Source: a virus. Taken from it: a stretch of DNA of 25,630 bases. Location of the stretch: positions 1 to 25,630 of the IMG/VR virus record IMGVR_UViG_3300015195_000063, one strand, 5' to 3'. The notes under the pieces were generated by a model that did not search any database, was not told where the DNA came from, and was given only the letters and a program-made list of their open reading frames with translations. Both the position numbers and the translations under genes were made by a program. Positions 1,173-15,860 of the stretch are shown piece by piece (position 1 is the stretch's first letter; each line of letters begins with the position of its first letter).

Positions 1173-2545
1173 CCGCCCGCGCATTCCAGACCGCTGCGCT
1201 CGACCGGGTGCGCGCGGAGCTTGTGTCCGGGAGGCGCGCCGTGCTGCTCGTGTCTCCCGTTGGCAGCGGCAAAACGTTTATGGGCTCCCAGGTCGCAGCG
1301 GGGCATCTGGCTCGTGCGACGACGGAGAAACCGAGGCGTGTCGTATGGCTGGCGCACCGCACGGAGCTCCGGCAGCAGGCGGCGGATGCGCTCACATCGA
1401 TCGGTTTAGACGTGGGTCACTCTGGGCGCAACGTAAACGCGCGTGTGCAGGTCTGCTCAGTGCAGCAGCTCACGATTCGGCGAGAAGCCCCGGACGCGAC
1501 GCTCGTGATTCCGGACGAGGCTCATCATCTAGCCGAGGGCAACGGGTGGACCGATCTGCTGCGCGCGTACCTCGATGCCGGCGCCAGGATCGTGGGGCTG
1601 ACCGCTACGCCGTCGAGAGCGGATGGGCAATCGCTGCACGGCTTCGACGCGATCGTGGTGGCCGCTCAGATTCGTGAGCTGCAGGAGCTCGGCCATCTGG
1701 TGCCGCTCACGATCAAGCGTCCACGTGCAGCGGTGCGCAAGGACCGGATCGCGCAGCTCCCGGTTGATTTCTATCTACAGTATGCGCGTGGGCGGCATGC
1801 CGTTGTGTTCGCGCCGCACGTGGTCGCCGCAGAGGCGTACGCGGCCGGGTTTCGTGGGCTCGGGATCGCTGCCGAGGTCGTAACGGGTAAGACGCCGGCA
1901 GATGAGCGCGCGTCGATTCTCGAGCGGTTCGCGTTGGGACGGCTGGCTGTGCTCGTAAACGTGGGCGTGCTCACCGAGGGATGGGATGCGACGATCTGCG
2001 ACTGCGTGATCCTGGCGCGCGGGTGCGGCTCGCCGTCGCTGCTCATCCAGATGGTAGGGCGCGGGCTTCGTCCACACGCGGGGAAAACGTCGTGTCTTCT
2101 CGGGGATCTCCGGGGCGTGACGTATGCGCTCGGTCGCCCAGACGCCGATGCGGACTACTCGCTGACCGGCGAAGGGATCGTGCTGCATGGGGCGAAGTCC
2201 GGCGAGCGGCTGTGCCCAGTGTGCGGCGAATTGCTCGGCGAGCTCGTCAGGTGTCCCAATCCGGCGTGTGGGCGTGACGTGTCGATGGTCGTGCCGATCG
2301 CTACGGGCGAGCCGCTGTTTGACTGGCACGAGGTGCTTGCGGCCGATTCACCGGATAAGCGCGTGGATAGACTCGCGCGGTGGATTCGTGTATCGAGAGA
2401 AAAAGGGCACAATCCGAATGCCGTGCGGTACAAATTCCGCGCGGTGTACGGCCATTACCCAGACGGGTCGACCCTCGCAAAGGCTGCACGGATGGCGGAC
2501 GAAACGCACGTAACAGGTGGTGACACCGATGGAGAGCGAACATGA
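1163..2545 (+). CDS. Superfamily 2 DEAD/DEAH-type helicase with C-terminal zinc ribbon
   Basis: This is a 460-aa ATP-dependent nucleic-acid translocase, probably used in phage replication or recombination. Walker A SPVGSGKT is at 31-38, the DEAH box (IPDEAHH) at 118-121, motif III-like GLTATP at 145-150 and motif VI QMVGRGLRP at 296-304. A CPVCG...CPNPAC zinc ribbon follows at about 351-369. The order matches the ResIII/UvsW-like SF2 group. The frame is open back to 1028, but that part lies on top of the lipoprotein gene and has no family character. GTG 1163 leaves only a 10-bp overlap and starts shortly before the FQTAAL Q-motif-like segment. It ends in an ATGA overlap with the next gene. 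Confidence 0.88.
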   Translation: MSITARAFQTAALDRVRAELVSGRRAVLLVSPVGSGKTFMGSQVAAGHLARATTEKPRRVVWLAHRTELRQQAADALTSIGLDVGHSGRNVNARVQVCSVQQLTIRREAPDATLVIPDEAHHLAEGNGWTDLLRAYLDAGARIVGLTATPSRADGQSLHGFDAIVVAAQIRELQELGHLVPLTIKRPRAAVRKDRIAQLPVDFYLQYARGRHAVVFAPHVVAAEAYAAGFRGLGIAAEVVTGKTPADERASILERFALGRLAVLVNVGVLTEGWDATICDCVILARGCGSPSLLIQMVGRGLRPHAGKTSCLLGDLRGVTYALGRPDADADYSLTGEGIVLHGAKSGERLCPVCGELLGELVRCPNPACGRDVSMVVPIATGEPLFDWHEVLAADSPDKRVDRLARWIRVSREKGHNPNAVRYKFRAVYGHYPDGSTLAKAARMADETHVTGGDTDGERT

Positions 2546-2961
2546 CGACAGCACAGGCAGTATCGGATTTGACGGACGAGGACACGAGCAGCTCGGACTC
2601 ACCACGCGACACGATCCGGCCGAAGGCACCGAAGCCCAGCAAGAAGCCCGTCAAGCGGCCGAAGTCGAGCAAGAGCAAGTCCACGAAGTCGATGAACGTA
2701 ACGAAGCGACCGACGAAGAAATCAGCGTTGGCATCGAAGCCGAAGGCCAAGCCGAAGGCCAAGCCGTCGACGCTCAGCAAGCCACGCGGCGGCTCCTCGA
2801 CGAAATCCCTCAAGAGCGGGAAGGTGCACGTCATGAGCGTCCACATCCCGGTCACGATGCTGATCAAGCTCGACAAGCGATGCGCAGCGAACGCAAAGAG
2901 CGGAAAGGGCGCGAGCAATCGGAGCTCATTCGCCGTGCAGGCGATCAGCTCCAGGCTCTGA
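2542..2961 (+). CDS. Lys-rich protein with C-terminal ribbon-helix-helix-like segment
   Basis: The protein is 139 aa and its ATG overlaps the helicase stop (ATGA); GGAGAG just upstream can act as ribosome-binding site. Residues about 25-95 are a Lys/Pro/Ser/Ala tail resembling histone H1 or bacterial Lys-rich nucleoid proteins. The last 40 residues (VHVMSVHIPVTMLIKLDKR ... FAVQAISSRL) read like an RHH fold: one beta strand, then two helices. It is therefore probably a DNA-binding protein, either a regulator or a DNA-compacting factor. Third codon positions in this frame are almost all G/C, supporting real coding. Its 3' end overlaps the methyltransferase gene in another frame. Confidence 0.72.
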   Translation: MTTAQAVSDLTDEDTSSSDSPRDTIRPKAPKPSKKPVKRPKSSKSKSTKSMNVTKRPTKKSALASKPKAKPKAKPSTLSKPRGGSSTKSLKSGKVHVMSVHIPVTMLIKLDKRCAANAKSGKGASNRSSFAVQAISSRL

Positions 2962-3776
2962 TAGCGGCACTCACCGATATCGCCAGCGTTTGCGACGGGA
3001 GCAAGCGCTGGTGTGTCGTACAGGCCGATTGTCTGGAGATCATGCGGTGTCTGCCCGAGCGGCTGGTGGCGCATGTGATTACGGATCCGCCGTACTCGGC
3101 GGCCGTGCACTCTCGGTCGATTCGGCGCACGTATCTGCCGGACGTGGCGGATCAGCCGTGTCGTAAAACGCGCGCGTTCGCGTTTGGATTCGACCATCTC
3201 ACGCGCGAACTATGTGCGCAGTATGCGGGCGAATTTCTACGCGTGGCGTCTCGCTGGGTGGCCACGTTCGCCGACGTCGAGATCGACTCGTGGTGGCGTG
3301 AATCGTTTGGCGATACGTATGTGCGTACAGGCGTGTGGGTCAAAGACCGGGCGATGCCGCAGATCAGTGGCGACCGGCCATCGTCACGCGTCGAGCACAT
3401 CGTGATCGCCCACCGTAAGGGACAGAAACGATGGAACGCGCGACCTGATGGCGGCGATTCCAACGTGTGGCAGTGCCCAGTCGTGGCCAACTGCAACGGA
3501 CATCGCACCGATCGGATTCACACCGCCCAGAAACCCGTAGAGATCATGCTGGATCTCGTCGAATCCTTCACCGATCGGAATGATCTAATCCTAGACCCGT
3601 TCGCCGGCAGTGGCACCACTGGCGTAGCCGCGCTACGACTCGGCCGGCGCGTGATCGTCATCGAGCGCGACGAAACATACGCCAAGCTCTGCGTCGAGCG
3701 CATGACTGCCGAGGAGGCCGGCAGTACGCTACTCGCGGCACGGGCGAAGCAAGTGCCGCTATACGGTGCGACGTGA
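2880..3776 (+). CDS. Beta-class DNA methyltransferase (N6-adenine or N4-cytosine)
   Basis: With ATG 2880 the protein has 298 aa. Catalytic motif IV DPPY is at 69-72 and comes before the SAM-binding motif I DPFAGSGTTG at 239-248. A motif X-like HTAQKPVE lies just before motif I. This circular order defines the beta class. Asp-Pro-Pro-Tyr favours adenine-N6 but does not exclude cytosine-N4. No cognate restriction enzyme is adjacent, so it probably protects phage DNA. The frame stays open upstream to GTG 2517 and ATG 2529 (with AGGTGG before it). That would give a Glu/Gln-rich N-terminus overlapping the Lys-rich gene for its whole length, but its codons often end in A there, unlike the neighbours. 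The start is therefore uncertain; the catalytic core is not. Confidence 0.85.
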   Translation: MRSERKERKGREQSELIRRAGDQLQALIAALTDIASVCDGSKRWCVVQADCLEIMRCLPERLVAHVITDPPYSAAVHSRSIRRTYLPDVADQPCRKTRAFAFGFDHLTRELCAQYAGEFLRVASRWVATFADVEIDSWWRESFGDTYVRTGVWVKDRAMPQISGDRPSSRVEHIVIAHRKGQKRWNARPDGGDSNVWQCPVVANCNGHRTDRIHTAQKPVEIMLDLVESFTDRNDLILDPFAGSGTTGVAALRLGRRVIVIERDETYAKLCVERMTAEEAGSTLLAARAKQVPLYGAT

Positions 3777-4283: not shown

Positions 4284-4604
4284 ATGCCGACCGATCGTTC
4301 AGCCCTGGAGACCTTGCTGGATCAGACGCTCGATCTCATGCAGACGAGCTGGCTCCTCGGTGACCTCCGACGTCACCGGGCGCGCAAGCTCATTGCGTGT
4401 GGACAGCGTCGCCGCCTTGCGTTCCAGCGCGATTACGTGCTCGCGATCGACGCGCTCGAGCTGGCGCACCGCGCGTTCGACCAGTGCGAGGCAGCCGCGC
4501 TCCGTGCGGCGCGGATCATCTCGGCCATGCGGCGGGACGAGCACGTGCTGACGCGGGAGATACTGCGGGAGCTAGGGACCGATGAGGATCGACTGACGTC
4601 GTGA
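4284..4604 (+). CDS. Small helical protein, unknown function
   Basis: The protein is 106 aa from ATG 4284, with GGGAGC about 9 bases upstream. It is rich in Leu, Ala, Arg and Glu (LLDQTLDLMQTSWLLGDL, ALELAHRAFDQCEAAALRAA) and probably all alpha-helical, perhaps a coiled-coil adaptor. I do not recognise a family. Codons end mostly in G/C in this frame, in contrast to the competing frame that starts with ATGA at 4177. The 103 bp before it (4181-4283) hold no convincing gene. Its stop overlaps the next start in GTGA. Confidence 0.65.
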   Translation: MPTDRSALETLLDQTLDLMQTSWLLGDLRRHRARKLIACGQRRRLAFQRDYVLAIDALELAHRAFDQCEAAALRAARIISAMRRDEHVLTREILRELGTDEDRLTS

Positions 4605-5599
4605 TCGCCCCATTCCCGTACTTTGGCGGCAAACGCACGATCGCGGAGACCGTGTGGCGAGCCTTCGGGAGCCCCAAGCAGTACATCGAGCCTTTCTGCG
4701 GCTCCGCGGCCGTGCTCCTGTCCGCTCACGAGCCGGCGTCGCTCGAGGTCATCGGCGACGCGAACGGATTCATTGCGAACTTCTGGCGAGCCGTCGTAGC
4801 GCAGTCCGAGCAGGTCGCGCGATGGGCCGACTATCCCGTCTCGCACGTCGACCTCGGCGCACGACACGTCTGGATGATGGGCGAGCGCGATCGTCTCGCG
4901 GCAGACCTGCAGGATCCAAACTGGCCGGGGAACGCGAAGCTCGCCGGCTGGTGGCTATGGGGTCAGTGCTCGTGGATTGGATCCGGGTGGTGCGAGTGGT
5001 CCGGCCAGGTCCCCCACGTCGGCAACGCGGGCATGGGCATCCAGGCCACCGGCCAGGTCCCCCACGTCGGCAACGCGGGCAGGGGCATCCAGGCCACCGG
5101 CCAGGTCCCCCACGTCAGCAGCGCGGGCATGGGCATCCAGGCCACCGGCAAGGTCCCCCACGTCAGCGACGCGGGCAGGGGCGCCTATGATCCGTGGACA
5201 TCGAGCGGACGCGTGGCGATGCGCTGGCTGCGTGAGCTCGCCGATCGCATGGAGCGCGTTCGCGTGGTGCACGGCGCGTGGGATCGCTGCCTCAACTCGC
5301 ACTACGGCGCAGAGCTGACGGCGATCTTCCTCGACCCGCCATACAAGGCATACGAAAAGCTGTACGGCGTGAGCGAGCCGGTAGCGGCCGACTGCGAGGC
5401 GTGGGCACGGGAAAACGCTGCACTCCGCGTCGCACTCTGCGGGCACCGGGGCGACTACGACCTGCCCGGCTGGGCGGTGCACGAGTGGGATCGCGGGCGT
5501 CTCACCTATGGCGGAGCCACTACGACGGCGCAGGAGTGTATCTGGCTTTCGCCGGCATGCCTGCCGCTCATGGCCAAGCAAACAGCGCTCTTTGGGTGA
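4601..5599 (+). CDS. Dam/D12-class adenine-N6 DNA methyltransferase with internal repeats
   Basis: This 332-aa protein starts at GTG 4601, overlapping the previous stop. The alpha-class order is visible: FPYFGGKR at 5-12, SAM motif I IEPFCGSAAVLL at 29-40, and catalytic DPPY at 245-248. Between them, where D12 enzymes hold the target-recognition region, lie almost four copies of a 16-residue repeat (residues 135-195, GQVPHVGNAGMGIQAT-like). I recall similar PHxGxAGxG repeats in other phage D12 enzymes, so the repeat is probably functional. The enzyme likely methylates adenine in phage DNA to evade restriction or mark replication. It is the second DNA methyltransferase in the cluster. Confidence 0.87.
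   Translation: MIAPFPYFGGKRTIAETVWRAFGSPKQYIEPFCGSAAVLLSAHEPASLEVIGDANGFIANFWRAVVAQSEQVARWADYPVSHVDLGARHVWMMGERDRLAADLQDPNWPGNAKLAGWWLWGQCSWIGSGWCEWSGQVPHVGNAGMGIQATGQVPHVGNAGRGIQATGQVPHVSSAGMGIQATGKVPHVSDAGRGAYDPWTSSGRVAMRWLRELADRMERVRVVHGAWDRCLNSHYGAELTAIFLDPPYKAYEKLYGVSEPVAADCEAWARENAALRVALCGHRGDYDLPGWAVHEWDRGRLTYGGATTTAQECIWLSPACLPLMAKQTALFG
5003..5191 (+). repeat. 48-bp in-frame tandem repeat, about 3.9 copies
   Basis: Units start at 5003, 5051, 5099 and 5147. Each codes for 16 residues of the type G-(Q/K)-VPHV-(G/S)-(N/S/D)-(N/A)-AG-(M/R)-G-IQAT; the last copy breaks off after AGRGA. Copies 1 and 2 are almost identical at DNA level, suggesting recent duplication or recombination. Unit length is divisible by 3, so copy-number change keeps the methyltransferase frame. 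Confidence 0.93.
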
Positions 5600-6018: not shown

Positions 6019-7466
6019 GTGCGGGCCCCATCGACACACCGATCGCCATCGGTGGCTGGCAGAGCGGGCTACTCCACAAGATCGGCAAAGGCGGTAAGCC
6101 CTCTGATCAACTGCGCGCGATTATCGCGAACGCAGTCACGATCCTCGCCAATGATCAGCGCTGGACAGGCTCGCTGGCTTACGACGAGTTCGCCGAATCC
6201 TTCGTGACTCTCAAGGTCCCGCCTTGGCGCGAGGTCGACCGGCAATCGGACCCCACGCCGGGCGACTGGACCGACGAGGACACCACTCGCACGCAGGCAT
6301 GGCTATCCGATGCGTACGCGCTCGATCTCGGACGTGAGGCCACGTTATCGGCAGTAAATCTGGTGGCGCACCGAAAACGTGTCCATCCCGTGCGCGACTG
6401 GCTCGAATCTCTCACGTGGGACGGTAAGCAGCGCCTGCCCACGTGGCTGATCGAGATCATGGGGGCCGATGACACTCCGTATATTCGCGCAATCGGCACT
6501 GCATGGGCGATATCGGCCGTTGCTCGCGTGTACCGGCCCGGATGCAAAGTCGATACGGTGCTGGTGTTCGAGGGGCCTACGGGGATCTTCAAATCAAGTG
6601 TGCTGCGTGCGCTCGTGGGCGACTCCTGGTTCGTCGAGATGTCGCTCACCGACGTGAACAACAAAGACGCAATGCAGGTCCTTCGTCGGAAATGGATCGC
6701 AGAGTTCCCTGAAATAGACTCCCTCTCACGGGCAGAGCAGGGCCACGTAAAAGCCTACTTCTCCCGGCAGGTCGATACGTACCGGCCGAGCTATGCCCGT
6801 ATGACCCGTGATTTCCCGCGTCAGATCGCGTTCGCTGCCACGACGAATCAGGTGCAGTACCTCACCGACGAGACTGGGGGGAGCGGTCGTCGAAACTGGC
6901 CGGTTCGGTGCGTGCGTGGGGACGTGGCCTTGGCGACCTCGATGCGTGATCAGTTCTGGGCCGAGGCGCGTGCGCGCTACCAGTCTGCCGAGGCGTGGCA
7001 CATGCTCGACCCGGAGCTACGGGATGCCGAGCGCGAGGAGCAGGAGGCGCGTTACCGCCCTGACCCCTGGGAGCAGTCGATCGCCTCATGGCTGTCCCGC
7101 CCGAGCGATGTAGGCGTTAGTAAGTCATCGATCGGGGTCACGGCCGCGGATATCCTCGAAGGCGCGCTACGGATCGATGTGGCCAAGCGCACCCACTCAG
7201 ACGCCATCAGGGTGGGCTCCGTCATGCGCCGGCTAGGGTGGGTGCCATCCCAGCACCCGCAACGACGCGACGGGGCCAGGGTCCGAGTCTACAGGCCGCT
7301 CGAGGGGAGCGCCACCAATGGGTCCTCCCACGACGACGACGACGATCTCAAGCACGAGCCTACGGTGGCGCACACCAATGGGGTCCGTGCCGATCGGCTG
7401 GCCTCAGAGGACGACTGTGCCGAGCCGACTGAGGATCTGTTCCCTCCGAGGCACAGACAAGGCTGA
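6015..7466 (+). CDS. VirE-like (virulence-associated E) P-loop ATPase, putative replication protein
   Basis: The protein is 483 aa from GTG 6015 (GTGA overlap). The central part matches the VirE family found in phages and plasmids: RDWLESLTWDGKQRLPTWL at about 125-145, the P-loop GPTGIFKSS at 187-195, RRKWIAEFPEIDSL (Walker B-like region), KAYFSRQVDTYRPSY and FAATTNQVQYLTDETGG. The last 60 residues are a polar tail with an Asp run. These proteins act as primase-helicase-like ATPases in replication of phages that lack DnaB-type helicases. The P-loop has Phe where Gly usually precedes Lys. AT-richer repeat DNA follows directly. Confidence 0.87.
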   Translation: MSAGPIDTPIAIGGWQSGLLHKIGKGGKPSDQLRAIIANAVTILANDQRWTGSLAYDEFAESFVTLKVPPWREVDRQSDPTPGDWTDEDTTRTQAWLSDAYALDLGREATLSAVNLVAHRKRVHPVRDWLESLTWDGKQRLPTWLIEIMGADDTPYIRAIGTAWAISAVARVYRPGCKVDTVLVFEGPTGIFKSSVLRALVGDSWFVEMSLTDVNNKDAMQVLRRKWIAEFPEIDSLSRAEQGHVKAYFSRQVDTYRPSYARMTRDFPRQIAFAATTNQVQYLTDETGGSGRRNWPVRCVRGDVALATSMRDQFWAEARARYQSAEAWHMLDPELRDAEREEQEARYRPDPWEQSIASWLSRPSDVGVSKSSIGVTAADILEGALRIDVAKRTHSDAIRVGSVMRRLGWVPSQHPQRRDGARVRVYRPLEGSATNGSSHDDDDDLKHEPTVAHTNGVRADRLASEDDCAEPTEDLFPPRHRQG

Positions 7467-8283: not shown

Positions 8284-8717
8284 AGGCATTGAGTGGCCGT
8301 CAGCCGTGGTGGTGGGCGATCCTGCACGCTGGGAAGCGGATCGAGAATCGTACGTGGGGGACGTCGTATCGAGGGCCGATCCTGCTGCACGCAGCGAAGG
8401 GCTGCACGGCGAGTGAGTATATCAGCGCAGTGGATTGGATGTTGGATGCGGGCGTCGTCGAGCACGAGACTAATGTGCCGTCGCTCGCCGACATGCAGCG
8501 AGGTGGCATCATAGGATGCGCGCGCATTGTCGCCGTGCTTCCACCGGGTGGACAAATCCGCCCAAGGAACGGGCGCTACAGGATGCCAGAGTGGTGGGGC
8601 GACATTGATATTAGGTGGCGAATGGCAGATCAATACGGATGGATCCTGGCCGACGTCGAGCCTCTTCCGTTCGTTTCGTGCAGGGGCCATCTCGGTCTGT
8701 TCGAGGTTGCGCCGTGA
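8280..8717 (+). CDS. ASCH domain protein
   Basis: The protein is 145 aa from GTG 8280, overlapping the previous stop. It opens with ALSGRQPWWWAILHAGKRIE and NRTWGTSYRGPILLHAAKG, the hallmark of ASCH (PUA-like) domains. It later shows GGIIGCARIVAV and ends with a YGWILADVEPLPFV...GHLGLFEV block, also usual. ASCH domains bind RNA or modified nucleosides, and some family members are nucleases or amidohydrolases of N4-acetylcytidine. Phage versions are common, and their role is unknown. The full domain is present with nothing else attached. Confidence 0.85.
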   Translation: MKALSGRQPWWWAILHAGKRIENRTWGTSYRGPILLHAAKGCTASEYISAVDWMLDAGVVEHETNVPSLADMQRGGIIGCARIVAVLPPGGQIRPRNGRYRMPEWWGDIDIRWRMADQYGWILADVEPLPFVSCRGHLGLFEVAP

Positions 8718-9070
8718 CGACGAAGCCGAATCGCCACGACGCGAAACAGCTGCAGCAGCGTCAGGAACCGTCACCGGATGCGAAGAGCTACGAGGATCAG
8801 ATCCGCGCGCTCATCGAGGCGGAGACGGCGCGGCTGCACGAGAAGGATCCGGTCATGCAGCTGACGGAGGCTGGCCGGTCGAAGGCGATCGCGAATCTCG
8901 TCAAGCTACGCGCCGAGCTCGGGAGTGGTCTTAGCGATGCGCAGATCATCCAGATACCAGGGTTTCAACGGCTGATGAACACGATTTACAAAGCGCTCGA
9001 GCCGTGGCCGGACGCGTATCAGGCGGTGCTGGCGGCGCTAAAACAGGTGACGGATGGAGGCGGACGATGA
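8714..9070 (+). CDS. Conserved-looking phage protein, unknown function
   Basis: The protein is 118 aa from GTG 8714 (GTGA overlap). The N-terminal 20 residues are polar and Gln-rich. A helical region follows (YEDQIRALIEAETARLHEK, RSKAIANLVKLRAELGSG, FQRLMNTIYKALEPWPDA). The all-helical make-up and size would fit a small terminase or DNA-packaging adaptor, but it sits 4 kb from the large subunit and lacks a clear HTH, so I leave it unnamed. ATGA overlap with the next gene. Confidence 0.6.
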   Translation: MTTKPNRHDAKQLQQRQEPSPDAKSYEDQIRALIEAETARLHEKDPVMQLTEAGRSKAIANLVKLRAELGSGLSDAQIIQIPGFQRLMNTIYKALEPWPDAYQAVLAALKQVTDGGGR

Positions 9071-9456
9071 ACGGCGCGAACGGCGCGAACGGTGAGGAGT
9101 GGGTCATTCTGCTCGCGGGTGGTCGCATGATGATCGGGCGGGACGTCGATCCGGCGATATCGGTGCGCATGCGGATCGCGCCCGTGTTTGATCTCAATGT
9201 GCAGGTGCAGCCTGTCGCGGGCGGTCAGGTGAACGTGAGTTACCAGGCGGTCCCGATCATGCTGCTCCCGACCCTCGATGCTCTCGAGTTCGACCGGGCA
9301 ACGACGGTCACGAAACGACTTTCGGACCTCGGACCGGAGGATCGTAGACGGCTGATGGGTGCGGTGCGATCCGGTCAGGAGATCCAGACCAGCATGCGCG
9401 CGCAGACGGCAGGCGTGGCGCTGCCGAGGATCGTTATGCCTGGAGGCCGACAGTGA
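9067..9456 (+). CDS. Unknown protein, probably beta-rich
   Basis: The protein is 129 aa from ATG 9067 (ATGA overlap). It begins with an Asn-Gly-Ala low-complexity repeat (NGANGANGEE). A strand-rich middle follows (WVILLAGGRMMIGRDV, VRMRIAPVFDLNVQVQPV), then a short helical part. No catalytic motif or family is recognised. It is embedded in the same overlapping gene string as its neighbours, which supports expression. Confidence 0.58.
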   Translation: MNGANGANGEEWVILLAGGRMMIGRDVDPAISVRMRIAPVFDLNVQVQPVAGGQVNVSYQAVPIMLLPTLDALEFDRATTVTKRLSDLGPEDRRRLMGAVRSGQEIQTSMRAQTAGVALPRIVMPGGRQ

Positions 9457-10049
9457 CCTGGCAGGAGATCCCCGGATGGTTTGGATTCCAGGACACCTAC
9501 GATCTTGCCGTGCGCGAGGCCAAGGATGGGGCCGTGTTCGTCGAGGTCGGTGTGGCCTTCGGGCGCTCGCTCGCGTACCTATCGCGCGCTGTCATCGACT
9601 CCGGCAAGCGCGTGAAGATCTGGGCCATCGATCCGTTTTGGGACGATTGGTGGCATGTGCCGGAGCAGTATCCGACGCACCTCGAGCGGCCAACGTGGGG
9701 CGGCGAGCACTCGCAGTTCGGCCGCGACCTCGGCGGACCGTTTAGCGCGTTCGTGCACTGCATGCGGACTCACGCGCCGGAGGAGCTCGAGCGCGTCAAC
9801 GTGCTTCGGTGCCGCTCGGCCGAGGCTGCGCAGATAATCGGATCGTGTGACTTGGTGATGATCGACGCGGATCACAATTACGCCGCAGTGGCTCAGGACA
9901 TCGCGCTTTGGCGACCGCACATCAAGACGGGCGGTCTGCTCGCGGGTGACGACTACTCGACGGACTTCCCTGGGGTGATTCGAGCCGTGGGCGAGGCTTT
10001 CGGGCCGATGGCGGAGAACGTGGGGACGACCTGGCGGGTGCGGTTGTGA
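9453..10049 (+). CDS. Class I SAM-dependent methyltransferase (Methyltransf_24-like)
   Basis: The protein is 198 aa from GTG 9453 (GTGA overlap). SAM motif I is FVEVGVAFGRS near 29-39. The second strand carries the acidic IDPFWDDW, and strand 4 gives VMIDADHNYAAVAQDI with D138, D140 and H141. It ends with GGLLAGDDY. This is the pattern of small O-methyltransferases of the Methyltransf_24 type, often beside glycosyltransferases. The substrate is probably a sugar or small molecule rather than DNA (no DPPY or PC motif). It is a tandem paralogue of the next gene. Confidence 0.82.
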   Translation: MTWQEIPGWFGFQDTYDLAVREAKDGAVFVEVGVAFGRSLAYLSRAVIDSGKRVKIWAIDPFWDDWWHVPEQYPTHLERPTWGGEHSQFGRDLGGPFSAFVHCMRTHAPEELERVNVLRCRSAEAAQIIGSCDLVMIDADHNYAAVAQDIALWRPHIKTGGLLAGDDYSTDFPGVIRAVGEAFGPMAENVGTTWRVRL

Positions 10050-10609
10050 GCTGGACCGACATCCCGGGGTACTCGGGTTTCGAGTGGCTGTACGCGGAGT
10101 TTGCTGCGACGGCGCCGAAGAACGCGATCGCTGTGGAGGTGGGCGTAGCGCTCGGTCACTCGGTCGCATACCTTGCGCGACTGCTGATCGACGCGGGACG
10201 CACGGACGTGCAGGTATGGGCGGTCGACCCGTGGGCAGGCGTCGCGCGCAACGGCGAGCAGCAAGAGGCGCTCGGTACTGCGCCGCGCGGGGACTTTCGG
10301 CTGTTTCTCGATCAGATGATCGCGCACGCGCCGGAGGAGCTCGAGTTCATCAGGATCGTGCGTGCGCCTTCCGAGGTGGCAGCGGAAATGTTTTTCTCGC
10401 TGTTCCCGACTCTCGTGCTCATCGACGCAGCGCACGATTACGATAGCGTGGCGCTGGACATCTCGGTCTGGTCGCGATGCGTGCGGTCTGGAGGGATTCT
10501 GGCTGGCGACGATCACGAGCCGAACTATCCGGGCGTGGAGAGGGCGTGTCGAGAGGCGTTCGGAACGGACTACAAAGTCGCGGGGAGCACATGGCATCGA
10601 CGGATGTGA
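10046..10609 (+). CDS. Class I SAM-dependent methyltransferase, tandem paralogue
   Basis: The protein is 187 aa from GTG 10046, overlapping the preceding paralogue. The two align along their length: W-x-(E/D)-IPG-(W/Y)-x-GF at the start, VEVGVALGHSVAYLARLLID for VEVGVAFGRSLAYLSRAVID, then VLIDAAHDYDSVALDISVW and GGILAGDDHEPNYPGV. The acidic residue D140 of the first copy is replaced by Ala here (IDAAHDY), so substrate or metal use may differ. The middle is about 10 residues shorter. Duplication followed by divergence is the simplest explanation. Confidence 0.82.
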   Translation: MSWTDIPGYSGFEWLYAEFAATAPKNAIAVEVGVALGHSVAYLARLLIDAGRTDVQVWAVDPWAGVARNGEQQEALGTAPRGDFRLFLDQMIAHAPEELEFIRIVRAPSEVAAEMFFSLFPTLVLIDAAHDYDSVALDISVWSRCVRSGGILAGDDHEPNYPGVERACREAFGTDYKVAGSTWHRRM

Positions 10610-10785
10610 AGTCGAGTGAGGTATCGAGCACGGAGTGCGGCTGCGTGTTGCTTGAGAGCACGGACGGAACAACTCTGATAAATCTCTGCGCGTGGCACAC
10701 GAGAGCGATCCAGCACTGCGATCGCGTCGTGTTGGCCGGAGCGATTCGCGAAATGGTGATCACAACGACGGTGGCGGCAGGATGA
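10591..10785 (+). CDS. Mini-protein with Cys-x-Cys and Cys-x-x-His
   Basis: The protein is 64 aa from ATG 10591, starting inside the 3' end of the methyltransferase, with CGGGGAG close upstream. After a Ser/Thr-rich leader it has ECGCVLLES, a DG turn and LCAWHTRAI. The C-x-C plus C-x-x-H arrangement looks like a single small zinc-binding knuckle. Many phages carry short proteins of this kind. Its function is unknown. It ends in an ATGA overlap with the glycosyltransferase. Confidence 0.62.
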   Translation: MASTDVKSSEVSSTECGCVLLESTDGTTLINLCAWHTRAIQHCDRVVLAGAIREMVITTTVAAG

Positions 10786-12401
10786 GCGAGATAACGATCA
10801 GCCTAGCGATTCCGCACACGCCTTGGATTCCGGCGCGCGTGGAGAGCTTAGGCAGACTGCACCACGCGCTAGGACTGAATCTCACGACACACCCGCCTCT
10901 ATGGGTCCGCCGCACGAAGCTATTCACCGAGCGCGCGCCGAACTGGAAATGGTCCGCCGACCTCTGGGGCTGGCTCGTCGAGTCCGGAACGTCGCACGGG
11001 CTCACGCTGCAGGACGATTGCATCGTGTCGCCGAACTTCTGGCCATCGCTACGCGCGATGCTCGAAGCGGTCCCCGACCAGGTGATCTGCCTCGAAACCG
11101 TCCATCCAGCCGCGCAAGCCCTGGCGCGCGAGGGACACCGATGGTTCACGACGTCGGACGCACTCGTCGGCGTGGGTTACGTGCTGCCCATTGCGCTGCT
11201 GCGTGAGTTCCTCGCGTGGCGATCGTCCGCGCTGAAACTGGGCGCGGTCGAACGGATCAACGAGGACACGCTCCTTGGACTTTGGTGCATGGTGACGGGC
11301 CGTAAGATCTGGCACCCGCTGCCGACGATCATCGATCACGACGTCGAGCAACCGAGCACGTATGGCAACGATGGGCATACGGCGAGACGGCCGCTCGTTC
11401 GGTGGGATACAGCGAGCGCCCCCGACGTGATTTACGACGGCATGGAGGAGGGCTGGTCGACTGCCGGTAAAATAGTCCCGCACCTCGGCCGGTTCCCCGG
11501 CTGGACCGTTCCACAGCTCGCTCTAGCGGAGGTCGAAGGGGTCACGCCGGCCGACGTCGCACGGTGGATGTCTGACGACGGGCGCAAGGTGCTGCGGCAG
11601 CTGGAATACGCACGCCGCGCGCGGGAGCCTGCAGCGGAGCCGAAACGCCGGATCTACATCGCGGTCCCTCACCGGGGCTCGACGCATCCGGAGCACACGC
11701 GATCGATCGTGACGCTCTGCGCGACGACGAGCGGCGTGGAGTTCGTGCTACCGACAGCGATCGAGACGTACGCGCAGACGGGCACAGATCTCGTGCGCGC
11801 AAGATCCAGAATGGTGCGGCAGTTTCTCGACACAGACTGTACCGATCTGCTGTTTCTCGACGCGGACATCAGTTTCGACGTCGCCGCGATCGCCGGCATG
11901 CTGGCGACGGAGCGGGACGTCGTGCTGTGTCCGTACCCGAAACGCCAGGGCGGTGCCGGTGGCGCGATTCACTGGGAGAACGTGGCGAAGGCAGCACCGG
12001 AGGACAAGAGCCATCCGGAGTCAAGGGCGTACGCGTACGCGCTTCGGGTGGTCGACGGCGGGGATCAGTCGGTGCAGTCGGATGGCACCGTGGAGATCGC
12101 CGGCTTCGGACTCGGGTGCTGTCTGATAAGCCGATCGTGTCTCGAGAAAATGGCCGCGTACTACGAGGCGGCGGACGGGTTCGACGATCGCTTTCTCGGC
12201 CAGCCAGTGCCGACCGTGGGGCTGTTCAAGCAGATCCACGAGGGGCGGGAGCTGCACTCGGAGGACTACTCGTTCTGCTACCGATGGCGCGCGATGGGCG
12301 GGAAAGTGTGGATGTACCTCGGCCCAGGGTCTCCAGTGACCCACCATGGGGATCACGCGTTTCGTGGGCACCTGGAGGCGTTCGGGCTACGGCGCGGGTG
12401 A
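10782..12401 (+). CDS. Two-domain glycosyltransferase
   Basis: The protein is 539 aa from ATG 10782. The N-terminal part (to about 230) holds LTLQDDCIVSPNFW with D78-D79, similar to GT25-like or other GT-A donors sites. The C-terminal part (about 285-539) starts RRIYIAVPHRGSTHPEH and has TDLLFLDADISFD with the metal-binding D360-A-D362. It goes on with VVLCPYPKR, GFGLGCCLISRSC and EDYSFCYRWRAMGGKVWM, as in GT-A enzymes of phages and of the Anp1-like group. Two GT-A folds in one chain suggest transfer of two sugars or one active and one degenerate domain. The target could be the virion, phage DNA or the host envelope. The tandem methyltransferases upstream may decorate the same glycan. Confidence 0.8.
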   Translation: MSEITISLAIPHTPWIPARVESLGRLHHALGLNLTTHPPLWVRRTKLFTERAPNWKWSADLWGWLVESGTSHGLTLQDDCIVSPNFWPSLRAMLEAVPDQVICLETVHPAAQALAREGHRWFTTSDALVGVGYVLPIALLREFLAWRSSALKLGAVERINEDTLLGLWCMVTGRKIWHPLPTIIDHDVEQPSTYGNDGHTARRPLVRWDTASAPDVIYDGMEEGWSTAGKIVPHLGRFPGWTVPQLALAEVEGVTPADVARWMSDDGRKVLRQLEYARRAREPAAEPKRRIYIAVPHRGSTHPEHTRSIVTLCATTSGVEFVLPTAIETYAQTGTDLVRARSRMVRQFLDTDCTDLLFLDADISFDVAAIAGMLATERDVVLCPYPKRQGGAGGAIHWENVAKAAPEDKSHPESRAYAYALRVVDGGDQSVQSDGTVEIAGFGLGCCLISRSCLEKMAAYYEAADGFDDRFLGQPVPTVGLFKQIHEGRELHSEDYSFCYRWRAMGGKVWMYLGPGSPVTHHGDHAFRGHLEAFGLRRG

Positions 12402-12417: not shown

Positions 12418-12555
12418 ATGCCTGCGTCGCCCTTTGTTCTCTCCGCGACCGACGAACCGCAGCTCTATCTGCACGCGACGGACTCGGAGCTGCTGACTCT
12501 CGATGCTGCTGACGTGGACCTCCTGCAGCTGCACGCAACTGACGAGGACGCATGA
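12418..12555 (+). CDS. 45-aa repeat-containing protein
   Basis: A short ORF fills the gap between the glycosyltransferase and the next gene. ATG 12418 has TAAGG about 7 bases upstream, and its TGA overlaps the following ATG (ATGA). The product contains three spaced copies of L-(H/D)-A-(T/A)-D (YLHATD, TLDAAD, QLHATD). It is very acidic and Leu-rich, reading like stacked short beta strands. I recall similar ATD-rich mini-proteins next to structural genes in other phages. Its role is unknown. Confidence 0.6.
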   Translation: MPASPFVLSATDEPQLYLHATDSELLTLDAADVDLLQLHATDEDA

Positions 12556-12851
12556 GCGATCCTCTCCAGACCGTGCTGCCCGGCAAGAGCCGGCACTCGG
12601 CAGTAACCGCGAAGCTACTCGGGCTGCTCGTCGACCCAACGACGATGGTCCTATCGATCATCGACCCGACCGGCGCCGTTACACTGCCGGCAGTCGTGCG
12701 TGATTCGGTCGGAACGTATCACTCGGATTACGTGATTCCAATAACGGCGCGTCCAGGTGTTTGGGTGCGTCGCTGGGTCGCATCCGGCACGCCGCCAGCG
12801 CAGACGAGCCTGGACGAGGTGCGATTCATTGTGCCGAAGCTGGCCGCGTGA
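12552..12851 (+). CDS. Small phage protein with Ig-like beta fold (predicted)
   Basis: The protein is 99 aa from ATG 12552 (ATGA overlap). The sequence alternates short strands and turns: LLVDPTTMVLSIIDPTGAVT, VVRDSVGTYHSDYVI, GVWVRRWVASG. The DPTGAVT ... GTYHxDY ... GxWxxRW pattern is common in small phage structural proteins of immunoglobulin-like fold encoded near terminase or neck genes. A virion or head-tail accessory role is likely, unproven. It is followed by 13 bp and then the terminase. Confidence 0.6.
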   Translation: MSDPLQTVLPGKSRHSAVTAKLLGLLVDPTTMVLSIIDPTGAVTLPAVVRDSVGTYHSDYVIPITARPGVWVRRWVASGTPPAQTSLDEVRFIVPKLAA

Positions 12852-12864
12852 CGGGTCGGGGCGC

Positions 12865-14502
12865 GTGACCGAGCAAGCGTACAAGCCGCGCGGTCCACGA
12901 AAGCAGCGATCGCTCGAGGAGTACGCCTACGCGCACGGCGTAAAATACGCGGCGCTGCACGGCATAGGAGAACTTCCGTGGGAACGCTGGAAACGGGATC
13001 CGGTCGCGTACGTCAAAGAGCGGCTGCTCGAGCCGATCGTGATGCCGCATCAGGTGGACATCCTGAGAGCGCTCGCGAGCGGGGCAGCCGGCACGGCCAT
13101 GTCCCGCGTGTCGGTGCGGTCTGGGCACAAGCCTGGCAAGACGCGCCTAGCGATCTGGGCGGTGTGCTGGTTCTTCGAGTGCTTCGACGGCGCCCTCGTG
13201 TACCTATGCGCCGCGATTGAGAAGCAAACGAAAAACGTGCTGTGGGCCGAGCTGGAACGCGTCGTGCGTGAGGCGCGAGCGCGCGGCGTCGAGATCGCCT
13301 GGCAGCTACCTCGCTCTCCCTCCGGTGGCGTGATGAGCGTCGACGGGTCGCGACGGATCATCGGGATCGCGGGGCGCGAGGTCGAATCACTCGCGGGCCT
13401 TTCCGGGCGCTTGTTTTTCGTGATCGATGAGGCCAGCAGCTTACCGGCGAACAAGGCCGAGGCGTTTCACGGCAACATGCTTGGCGGTGGCCTCATGCTG
13501 TGGATCTCGAATCCCACACGCACGGTCGGCCCCTTCTTCGAAACGTTTTTCTCGCAGAAAGAGTACTGGCAGAATTTCTGGATCGACTGCGAGAAGGTCG
13601 CCGCGTGGGTCGACGATAACAACCTGCGCAAGCTCCTGCCGTACGTGACCAATCGCTCGAGCGTGCTCGAGGCGCGCGGCATTTATGGAGGCGTCGACAA
13701 TCCGATCTACAAGATTCGCGTTCGTGGTGAGTTCGTGTTGAACGAGCAGGGGCGCGCGATTTCGCTGGCGGAGATCATCGACGCGCACGAGCGGTGGGAG
13801 TTTGCGCCGGAGGACGGGGTGCTGACAGTGGGGCTCGATCCGGCTGGACCGGGGAAGGGCGGCGACGATACGGCGTTTGCTCTGCGCCGCGGCAACAAGG
13901 TGCTGTGCATCTTCCGGTTCTCAGGGATCACCGAGGACGACATCATTCAGCACTTGCTCGCGTTCCTGCGACAGTACAAGCACCCGGATGAGGAGCCGAT
14001 CGTCAACGTCGATGCGGAGGGACCGATCGGCGGATCGCTGTACGGTCGCCTCCGCGCGATTTCGAACGGCACGACGCCGGGGCATCGGTTTACGGTGTTC
14101 TCCGTACGCGCCTCACTGCCGGCCCGTCGAGAGCCGCAGCTATACGAGCGCACCCGCGAGGAGCTGTTCGCGAATCTGGCGAAGTGGCTGCGAGAGGGCG
14201 GGGCGATCCCTCCGGATCCGAAGCTCGACGCAGAGCTACACGATCCCGTATGGATCGGACAGGTGGGGCCAAAACTGAAATTGAGCTCGAAGGAGCAGAG
14301 TCGCGAACGGCTCGGGCGCTCGACAGACGGGGCCGATGCGGTCGCGCTGTCCGTGTGGACTGCGGTGCGCACGCAACCGGCAGCGCAGGAGTCGCCGGCG
14401 CACCCTACCGACGTCTATTTTCAGCAACCGTTTCAGGCGCAGGCGAGCGCCGACGATTTCTATCAGGTTCCGGACGGAATGGGCGGATCGGACGGATTCT
14501 GA
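12865..14502 (+). CDS. Terminase large subunit (ATPase and nuclease)
   Basis: The protein is 545 aa from GTG 12865; the open frame reaches back to 12757 but overlaps the previous gene. The packaging ATPase has Walker A GHKPGKT at 87-93 and Walker B FFVIDEAS with D188-E189, followed by a coupling-type WISNPTR. The RNase H-like nuclease shows VGLDPAGPGKGGDD (D325), VNVDAEG (D383) and DGADAVAL (D491), the usual acidic triad. Size and layout fit Mu gp28-like and related TerL proteins. Its 3' end overlaps the convergent portal gene by 40 bp. No small terminase is identified with confidence. Confidence 0.92.
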   Translation: MTEQAYKPRGPRKQRSLEEYAYAHGVKYAALHGIGELPWERWKRDPVAYVKERLLEPIVMPHQVDILRALASGAAGTAMSRVSVRSGHKPGKTRLAIWAVCWFFECFDGALVYLCAAIEKQTKNVLWAELERVVREARARGVEIAWQLPRSPSGGVMSVDGSRRIIGIAGREVESLAGLSGRLFFVIDEASSLPANKAEAFHGNMLGGGLMLWISNPTRTVGPFFETFFSQKEYWQNFWIDCEKVAAWVDDNNLRKLLPYVTNRSSVLEARGIYGGVDNPIYKIRVRGEFVLNEQGRAISLAEIIDAHERWEFAPEDGVLTVGLDPAGPGKGGDDTAFALRRGNKVLCIFRFSGITEDDIIQHLLAFLRQYKHPDEEPIVNVDAEGPIGGSLYGRLRAISNGTTPGHRFTVFSVRASLPARREPQLYERTREELFANLAKWLREGGAIPPDPKLDAELHDPVWIGQVGPKLKLSSKEQSRERLGRSTDGADAVALSVWTAVRTQPAAQESPAHPTDVYFQQPFQAQASADDFYQVPDGMGGSDGF

Positions 14503-15860
14503 GACGCTGCGGCGTCCGGCTCGGTGGAAACCTCCGGCGTCGGTCCCTTCTCGGTCGGCACGCCGAATCGCGCGAGCAATTCGATCAGGTTCAGGCGCAC
14601 GTGATCGGCATCGTCTGGCGATTGTGCCGCAGCCATCGCCTCGACGAGCCCCTTGACGGCATTCGCGACGGTGACGAGCGTATTCGCCTCGACCGTGCGA
14701 TCTTTCGGTGCGGACACATCCGTTTCGACGCGCGTCGAGTTTTTCAGCGCATCGGTGCCCCATTTCCGACCGATGAAACCGGGCAGGATCTGCGTATTGA
14801 CCGTGTGATCCCACGATCCGCTCGTCGTTCCGATCAAATCGGTCTGAACGACGCGAAACACGTCCATATTGCTGAATCCAGCGGTTCCCTGGAGCATGAC
14901 GGCCGATCCGCAGAGCGCGGTAGCGATCTCCTCATTGTGATTCTTGATCGCCTGGTCGTATATGTTGATCCCCTCGCCTTTCGACTCGATCAGCTTGAGA
15001 TCCCATCCGACAGGCAGAGAAAACGCCGCATTGAACGACCATTTGATGATCTGCGAGAGAAAGCCGGCTCGCTCCTCTTCGCTCGCGCCGAGTGGTGCCG
15101 TGGCAACGCGTGCAGGATGCGCGTGCTTCGTGACGTACGCCTGACGGGCGAAAATAACTTGGGTCTTATTGATGTACGAGCGGCCGAGCGTGTTCCATAG
15201 ACCGTTGTTCCACGGCGCCAGGCGCCCACCGCCCATGTGCAGGACCCAAGAGTTCCCGTTCGCGTCCGGAAGTCCCGGAGTGATCGGGATCAGGCCGACG
15301 AGCGATCGGTAGTACCACTGATTCTTGCTCCACATGTAATAGAGATTCTGTGGAAACCGTCGCACGAGCACCGGGAAGTCCCTGCCCACGACGGGGACCA
15401 TCTCACCGACAGACACGCCGCAACAGATCTCGTCGCTCACCATGAGCTTAGATTCGCTGGTCGGGATCATCTCCGTGTAGACGTCGCGATCGCTGGCGTT
15501 ACGCGACTGCAGCACATCGATCACGTCCTTGGATCCGTAAAATCGCCTCGGGAAATTCACGACGGACGTGCGCGCGTCGAGCAAGCCGCGGATCACGCCG
15601 TCTAGTTTCATCGATTCGTTCAGCTGCCCGACGAGCAAGAGATCCCCGTTGCTGGCAAGCCGCTGCGCCCGCTCGACGTCGGGCGGATACCAGCGGAGCC
15701 GAACCTGCGGGATCGTCTCGAGCGAGCCACCCATCGCCTCGCGGACTCGGTGCGTGACCTCGTCGCCGAGTTCTGGCCCTGGCTGCGTGGGCGGCTGAAA
15801 CGTGGAGATCCCGAGTAGAGCGGCGATCAGGTCCTTGAACGACTCACCAACGGAGGGCAT
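14463..15860 (-). CDS. Portal protein, DUF935 (Mu gp29-like), on the minus strand
   Basis: The protein is 465 aa from ATG at 15860 on the minus strand, with AGGGG just upstream. It resembles DUF935 portals: GVIRGLLDARTSVV, CCGVSVGEMVPV, RRFPQNLYYMWSKNQW and IKWSFNAAF. The strongest block is IESKGEGINIYDQAIKNHNEEIATAL near residues 300-325. The portal is the dodecameric ring at the head vertex through which DNA is packaged. In Mu-like phages it follows terL on the same strand; here it runs opposite. It is convergent with terL (40-bp overlap) and 5 bp after the LacI-like gene. The C-terminus is a Pro/Ser/Glu-rich tail. Codon use looks like its neighbours, so it is not an obvious foreign insert. 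Confidence 0.88.
   Translation of the reverse strand: MPSVGESFKDLIAALLGISTFQPPTQPGPELGDEVTHRVREAMGGSLETIPQVRLRWYPPDVERAQRLASNGDLLLVGQLNESMKLDGVIRGLLDARTSVVNFPRRFYGSKDVIDVLQSRNASDRDVYTEMIPTSESKLMVSDEICCGVSVGEMVPVVGRDFPVLVRRFPQNLYYMWSKNQWYYRSLVGLIPITPGLPDANGNSWVLHMGGGRLAPWNNGLWNTLGRSYINKTQVIFARQAYVTKHAHPARVATAPLGASEEERAGFLSQIIKWSFNAAFSLPVGWDLKLIESKGEGINIYDQAIKNHNEEIATALCGSAVMLQGTAGFSNMDVFRVVQTDLIGTTSGSWDHTVNTQILPGFIGRKWGTDALKNSTRVETDVSAPKDRTVEANTLVTVANAVKGLVEAMAAAQSPDDADHVRLNLIELLARFGVPTEKGPTPEVSTEPDAAASQNPSDPPIPSGT

Follow-up and report, generated by a model that had tools for sequence, protein, structure and literature searches.

A tandem-methyltransferase and two-domain glycosyltransferase locus as a probable virion glycosylation cassette in a tailed-phage contig

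The DNA analysed here, referred to throughout as the window, comprises 25,630 bases and makes up IMG/VR virus record IMGVR_UViG_3300015195_000063, which may be a fragment. Four plus-strand open reading frames (ORFs) across positions 9453-12401 encode two methyltransferases (MT1 and MT2), a small Cys/His-containing protein (the mini-protein) and a glycosyltransferase (GT) with two domains. These ORFs are chained by 4-bp stop-start overlaps that read GTGA or ATGA. Such an overlap joins the ORF beginning at 9067 to MT1, MT1 to MT2, MT2 to the mini-protein and the mini-protein to the GT, and two further 4-bp overlaps (8714-8717 and 9067-9070) lie upstream of the cassette. A first-pass annotation, made from the letters of this DNA, had described the linked genes as a possible cassette for decorating a glycan, and its coordinates and overlaps were verified. 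We favour, with moderate confidence, a virion glycosylation cassette that makes a short, probably O-methylated glycan and lies beside the packaging genes.

Both methyltransferases belong to Methyltransf_24 (PF13578). MT1 scores 63 bits and MT2 scores 49.5 bits against a curated cut-off of 26.3, and the proteins are 41-45% identical to each other, depending on the alignment, which bears out their description as two diverged copies. The nearest solved chains of the methyltransferase profile are a methyltransferase domain protein and O-methyltransferases. The best solved match is PDB 6g7d (1.3e-4), presumably the mycobacterial sugar 1-O-methyltransferase MeT1. From the Pfam family and the nearest solved chains we infer that these enzymes carry out small-molecule or sugar O-methylation. 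The first-pass annotation had also read the loss of an acidic residue in one copy as a sign of split roles. The replacement is real (IDADH in MT1 and IDAAH in MT2, with D140 of MT1 corresponding to alanine), but a functional split on this basis was rejected, since the column holds S 31 times, D 25, G 13, C 8 and A 8 among 95 relatives, with other residues fewer. A substitution in so variable a column is no sign of lost catalysis. The preceding D, the following H and a later D are near invariant in the same relatives and present in both copies, and their retention suggests that MT2 is probably not a dead enzyme despite its longer branch. An independent methyltransferase tandem in another viral contig (L133; loci fetched for comparison carry an L number) likewise pairs DADH with DAAH. 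In a tree that left out the methyltransferase of locus L348, MT1 and MT2 are sisters (support 100/94, from a bootstrap that had not settled). A recent duplication was considered; the L348 enzyme shares 60% identity with MT1 against 43% with MT2, which argues that the duplication is probably older than the split between MT1 and the L348 enzyme. Tandem methyltransferases were found in one of 80 methyltransferase loci with the first profile and in eight of 80 once the profile had been retrained on these loci, several of the eight being near-identical contigs; at locus L127 a Glycos_transf_2 protein comes after such a tandem.

The GT protein matches two PHROG families in non-overlapping regions, phrog_854 (5.5e-12, about residues 60-208) and phrog_1574 (1.3e-16, about residues 288-528), with a query that carried one extra leading residue. 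Neither domain reached any Pfam family in the Pfam scan. Both domains are predicted by modelling to be GT-A-like folds, in agreement with the two GT-A domains proposed earlier. The C-terminal domain, aligned with 64 relatives, was modelled with a mean predicted local distance difference test score (pLDDT) of 86.4. Its best solved relative by sequence profile is A197 (PDB 2c0n, 3.8e-7) of Sulfolobus turreted icosahedral virus (STIV). A197 also ranked best with VIA-align (Z 16.4, root-mean-square deviation 2.4, 163 aligned residues, 23% identity; LH3 next at Z 15.3), while Foldseek placed LH3 and ColGalT1 on top, with A197 absent among the best 50 matches listed. The N-terminal domain model has a mean pLDDT of 77.8, is good for residues 1-195 only and reaches a best Z of 14.2; its fold neighbours GnT-I, POMGnT1, ColGalT1, mimivirus R655 and LH3 score alike, with Z of about 13-14. 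ColGalT1, LH3 and mimivirus R699/R655 share GT-A folds with the window protein, and the two GT-like regions of ColGalT1 (42-315 and 339-573) match the two window domains. This similarity is at the level of the fold only, at roughly 8-16% identity and with Z values tied with many GT-A proteins. Residues of the GT-A active-site type are kept in both domains (D78, D79, D162 and H186; D360, D362, E494, D495 and H521), and acidic metal-site and base roles are ascribed to such conserved residues (Table 1).

Table 1 Features of the methyltransferase-glycosyltransferase locus and its immediate flanks
Feature	Position	Strand	Description
Two small upstream ORFs (8714-9070 and 9067-9456)	8714-9456	+	Part of the overlap chain
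MT1	9453-10049	+	198 aa; Methyltransf_24 class I S-adenosylmethionine methyltransferase, probable sugar O-methyltransferase; Pfam 5.7e-17
MT2	10046-10609	+	187 aa; diverged MT1 paralogue; Pfam 8.5e-13; branch 1.47 versus 0.72
Mini-protein	10606-10785	+	59 aa, Cys/His; possible zinc binder; exact 4-bp overlaps on both sides; no family
Two-domain glycosyltransferase	10782-12401	+	539 aa; PHROG matches and predicted folds
GT N-terminal GT-A domain, phrog_854 type	10782-11369	+	Residues 1-196; good model for about 1-195
N-domain DD motif (D78, D79)	11013-11018	+	Also D162 (11265-11267) and H186 (11337-11339); D78, D79 and H186 invariant, D162 at least 90%, in 37 sequences
GT C-terminal GT-A domain, phrog_1574 type	11643-12374	+	Residues 288-531; profile and model
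C-domain DxD motif (D360, D362)	11859-11867	+	Invariant in 8-sequence and 65-sequence alignments
C-domain ED motif (E494, D495)	12261-12266	+	Invariant, as is H521 (12342-12344), in 8-sequence and 65-sequence alignments
Terminase large subunit (TerL)	12865-14502	+	Start inferred; phrog_2 1.2e-24 for ORF 12757-14502

The mini-protein had been called zinc-knuckle-like. The pattern CxC...CxxH...HC is indeed present in its 59 residues, and the protein may be a small zinc-binding accessory; it matched no PHROG family and, when scanned within a longer ORF, no Pfam family, and a search for phage relatives gave none that were convincing (best E 3). The CxC...CxxH pattern occurs in small ORFs at 7.7 hits per Mb in loci fetched through the C-terminal GT domain (the GT-C set), 1.3 in the methyltransferase set, 6.9 in the set fetched through the N-terminal GT domain (GT-N) and 17.7 in control loci. 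The mini-protein is thus unsupported as a recurring part of the cassette, the pattern being denser in control loci than in any of the three sets. Cys-rich tails of the CxxC type end the GTs related to the N-terminal domain at loci L144 (1905-2723) and L390 (12798-13694).

Relatives of the cassette genes in other viral contigs were retrieved from IMG/VR by alignment-based queries, pattern matches and profiles. Single-sequence scans, whether with the GT, with MT1 or with TerL, brought up no relatives, whereas alignment queries did. Relatives of the C-terminal domain (C-type GTs) are very common, at least 561 among 600 pattern matches listed; methyltransferase relatives number at least 304 among 600 listed, and relatives of the N-terminal domain (N-type GTs) account for 39 of 516 pattern matches. 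Methyltransferase genes accompany one or both GT types at L144 (extended as L420), L348, L356 and L119/L390. The gene order at L144 is N-type GT, methyltransferase, C-type GT, TerL and portal, with the C-type GT joined to the methyltransferase by an ATGA overlap. At L356 a methyltransferase is followed by a 240-aa ORF that begins in its stop codon, by a 536-aa two-domain GT that begins in the stop codon of that ORF, and by TerL and portal genes whose products are 36% and 38% identical to those of the window. Among the 421 fetched loci, none but L356 matches the TerL or portal of the window at 1e-5. The 536-aa protein of L356 (6849-8459) carries two successive phrog_854-type domains that share about 33% and 36% identity with the window N-terminal domain, and its 240-aa ORF (6130-6852) looks GT-like by eye and has no PHROG match. 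Both loci resemble the window in having a methyltransferase and two GT domains ahead of TerL and portal; L356 differs in its pair of phrog_854-type domains and the extra ORF, and L144 in having the two domain types in separate genes. Neither a second methyltransferase nor a mini-protein was identified in L356 or L144, and no earlier description of these cassettes was found in the literature searched.

At L348 the contig starts at a C-type GT gene (38% identity) that ends 9 bp ahead of the methyltransferase, and TerL (phrog_38, 1.6e-48) and a weak portal match follow. At L119/L390 an N-type GT accompanies two Methyltransf_24 genes and genes for a GDP-mannose dehydratase, an epimerase and an aminotransferase; a Mu-F-like head gene lies at the opposite end. 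The Phage_Mu_F-like protein of L119 (100-2325) also shows a C-terminal intein-splicing match at 4e-5, which falls short of the curated cut-off. Among the loci examined, N-type and C-type GTs occur together beyond the window only at L144/L420, as separate genes, and the exact four-gene set with two methyltransferases, the mini-protein and the domain fusion was not found in any other. The first-pass annotation had offered co-occurrence of the genes in other phages as one check of its proposal; methyltransferase and GT genes do recur together at the loci above, though not as the complete set.

Co-occurrence was counted in loci sets that are partly redundant and of limited size, with profiles trained on those loci, so the contrast with controls is a qualitative one. 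Other components accompany the query family in 5 of 80 GT-C loci, 5 of 80 methyltransferase loci and 3 of 39 GT-N loci, and none of 120 control loci fetched with an arbitrary 14-mer contains any of the three families. After removal of redundancy the counts are 5/79, 5/67 and 3/35 versus 0/118 (Fisher p 0.010, 0.006 and 0.011, respectively). A later set added a methyltransferase with either GT type in 10 of 76 new loci, several of which extend loci already counted. Because the profiles were trained on the loci and the loci are not independent, we regard this excess as supportive only. It bears on the idea that unrelated moron genes were assembled here by chance, sharing no pathway, with the methyltransferases acting on small molecules. 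The uniqueness of the four-gene set among the loci examined would fit such an origin, as would the isolation of the query gene at most loci. The idea is nonetheless unlikely in view of the chain of 4-bp overlaps, a third-position GC content of the cassette genes (0.72-0.82) inside the range of the other genes (0.66-0.82), the pairing of methyltransferase with GT ahead of TerL in phages with diverged terminases, and the excess over control loci.

N-type GT neighbours comprised 130 proteins from 34 loci, based on crude gene calls and with matches to more than one family possible. Among the best 25 of 179 PHROG families were terminase small subunit (6 matches), portal (5 and 3), head protease (5, 5 and 4), major head protein (4, 3 and 3) and glycosyltransferases (4 and 4). 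The N-terminal domain was found in 195 records of named phages at E up to 0.1, all of them Mycobacterium, Mycolicibacterium or Gordonia phages. Its relatives in 15 genome loci came from actinomycetes or actinomycete metagenome-assembled genomes (14) and one archaeal metagenome-assembled genome; a methyltransferase is present in 1/15 of these loci and a C-type GT in 0/15. Among the immediate neighbours of the methyltransferases, 132 proteins at 67 loci, the commonest Pfam families are GT2 (15), FkbM methyltransferase (11), Methyltransf_24 (5), GT25 (5) and GT9 (4). In a huge-phage record (LR756501; L006, 385-8508), ORFs around an MT1 relative resemble glycosyltransferases and further methyltransferases by eye.

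Lipopolysaccharide-type GT families and nucleotide-sugar enzymes among the methyltransferase neighbours, together with the capacity of cytosolic GTs to act on envelope precursors, would suit enzymes that change a cell-surface glycan of the host, for example in superinfection exclusion. We hold this to be rather unlikely. In the window as well as at L356, L144 and L348 the genes precede TerL, and a crude hydropathy scan gave no clear membrane segment in the cassette proteins (19-residue maxima of 1.23, 1.67, 1.46 and 1.72, with 0, 1, 0 and 2 spans above 1.6). Clusters for O-antigen seroconversion (gtr), for comparison, encode membrane-embedded Gtr proteins.

The closest parallel to the cassette comes from mycobacteriophages. 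The phrog_854 family includes gp35 of Dylan (1.9e-74), gp238 of the Bxz1-type phage ErnieJ (2e-88) and gp137 of the Gordonia phage Fryberger (8.2e-59). In pairwise blastp against a small database, the N-terminal domain matched these proteins at 2e-6 (26% over 148 aa), 7e-10 and 6e-8, respectively, and tblastn with the same domain reached Dylan gp35 at E 1 only. The Dylan gene run is portal, O-methyltransferase, three successive GTs, protease and capsid, and matches Corndog gp35-38. Portions of one report suggest the Corndog genes as possible capsid modifiers (PMC4351075), and portions of another, citing Freeman 2023, say that Corndog-type genes modify the capsid and the tail tube (PMC11600133). 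Phage-encoded virion glycosylation is described, in the portions of the literature consulted, as reported in mycobacteriophages and suspected in some Rhodococcus phages. The Corndog cluster (cluster O; Dylan gp32-35) is like the window in placing a Methyltransf_24 methyltransferase beside GTs in the head and packaging module, with overlapping genes and a phrog_854 GT. It differs in having a single, TylF-like methyltransferase (7.6e-13) and three separate GTs, and the window in turn belongs to a different phage type with a tail sheath. Common to both are thus a gp35-type GT, a methyltransferase of the same broad Pfam family and the location in a head module. STIV A197, the best solved relative of the C-terminal domain by profile and by VIA-align, is a single-domain archaeal virus protein, unlike the window GT with its second domain. 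Parts of one account describe A197 as essential and the coat protein of STIV as glycosylated, with the A197 acceptor being presumed (PMC10551542).

That the window genes form a cassette for building and methylating a glycan is well supported by their families, predicted folds, conserved residues and the recurrence of methyltransferase with GT in viral contigs. The reading as a virion glycosylation cassette also draws on the operon-like packing, the placement ahead of TerL, the same placement of methyltransferase and GT genes in other phages, and the head and packaging genes that surround relatives of the N-terminal domain. The first-pass annotation had left virion proteins, phage DNA and the host envelope side by side as targets; the evidence favours the first and makes the other two less likely. 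In the mechanism we propose, each chemical step of which we infer, a single soluble protein would work in the cytoplasm with both of its GT-A domains, drawing on host nucleotide-sugars and adding two sugars in succession to a virion protein of the head, tail tube or sheath. Hydroxyls of the glycan would then be O-methylated by MT1, and probably by MT2 as well, which would cap or mask it, with the mini-protein as a possible accessory.

Several observations weigh against virion glycosylation. Loci with a single component dominate (75/80, 75/80 and 36/39 of the GT-C, methyltransferase and GT-N sets lack the other components), and for this reason our confidence was slightly lowered. For the N-terminal domain, many GT-A proteins come out as equally good fold matches. 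Beyond the common Pfam domain, neither blastp nor profile searches linked MT1 or MT2 significantly to Dylan gp32 (best E 0.11). The C-domain profile reached gp34 at E 0.49 and gp33 at E 1.6, and the window GT has no PHROG match to the gp33 and gp34 families. Because these two families were searched for and no match was obtained, the cassette, which works like the Corndog locus, is not filed as a member of the Corndog type. The methyltransferases fall in a PHROG family, phrog_2675, that is named DNA methyltransferase, of which only about columns 307-464 of the 599-column profile were matched. Finally, phrog_1574 relatives in Cr30, vB_OspM_OC and DLP6 adjoin replication genes (clamp and clamp-loader), and for this reason phrog_1574 may serve more than one purpose.

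The last two points would also fit DNA hypermodification, where the GTs would glycosylate a modified phage base and the methyltransferases would methylate the base or its sugar, giving protection from restriction. No base-hydroxylating or hydroxymethylating enzyme, such as T4-type DNA glucosylation relies on, was found by Pfam in 29 window ORFs scanned, some of them spurious, of a record that may be a fragment. Distinct genes for DNA methyltransferases lie elsewhere in the window (2517-3776 and 4601-5599), and the cassette enzymes' family and nearest solved chains indicate O-methyltransferases. On this evidence hypermodification is unlikely.

A more specific version of the virion glycosylation reading is tentative and we consider it doubtful. 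The bifunctional GT would build a disaccharide on a virion protein, the two diverged methyltransferases would each cap a different hydroxyl, and the cassette would occur in tail-sheathed phages outside the known glycosylated mycobacteriophages, with its second GT domain swapped. The second GT domain does vary, being of the phrog_854 type in L356, of the phrog_1574 type in the window and encoded in a separate gene in L144. If true, domain swapping could allow rapid glycan change, for example in escape from binding by a host, predator or antibody. A recurring methyltransferase and GT cassette ahead of the terminase in environmental phages, at least one of them tail-sheathed, would extend virion glycosylation to other phage groups. 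It would also offer a role for some members of phrog_1574, a large family without a name, and connect that family with the archaeal virus protein A197. The cassettes are small gene sets suited to testing glycan sequence and methyl capping.

The surrounding genes are those of a tailed phage, including a helicase, DNA methyltransferases, a VapE-type ATPase, terminase, Mu-type portal, protease, a major head protein recognised by a weak match, sheath and tape measure. The ORFs at 8714-9070 and 9067-9456 have no Pfam match in these frames. Two short ORFs separate the GT from TerL, of which one (12418-12555, 45 aa) is rich in a repeated L.ATD-like motif. The Mu-type portal (14463-15860, Portal_Mu 1.2e-23) lies on the minus strand, opposed to its neighbours, and overlaps the end of TerL by 40 bp; the portal of L356, also 465 aa long, comes after TerL and shares its direction, unlike that of the window. 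The window orientation may reflect an inversion or an assembly error. Of the DNA methyltransferase-type ORFs, that at 2517-3776 matches N6_N4_Mtase (4.3e-27) and that at 4601-5599 matches MethyltransfD12 (2.7e-9), the latter match being confined to the first part of the ORF. A DUF6745 protein (9.4e-47) occupies positions 1-834 at the open end of the record.

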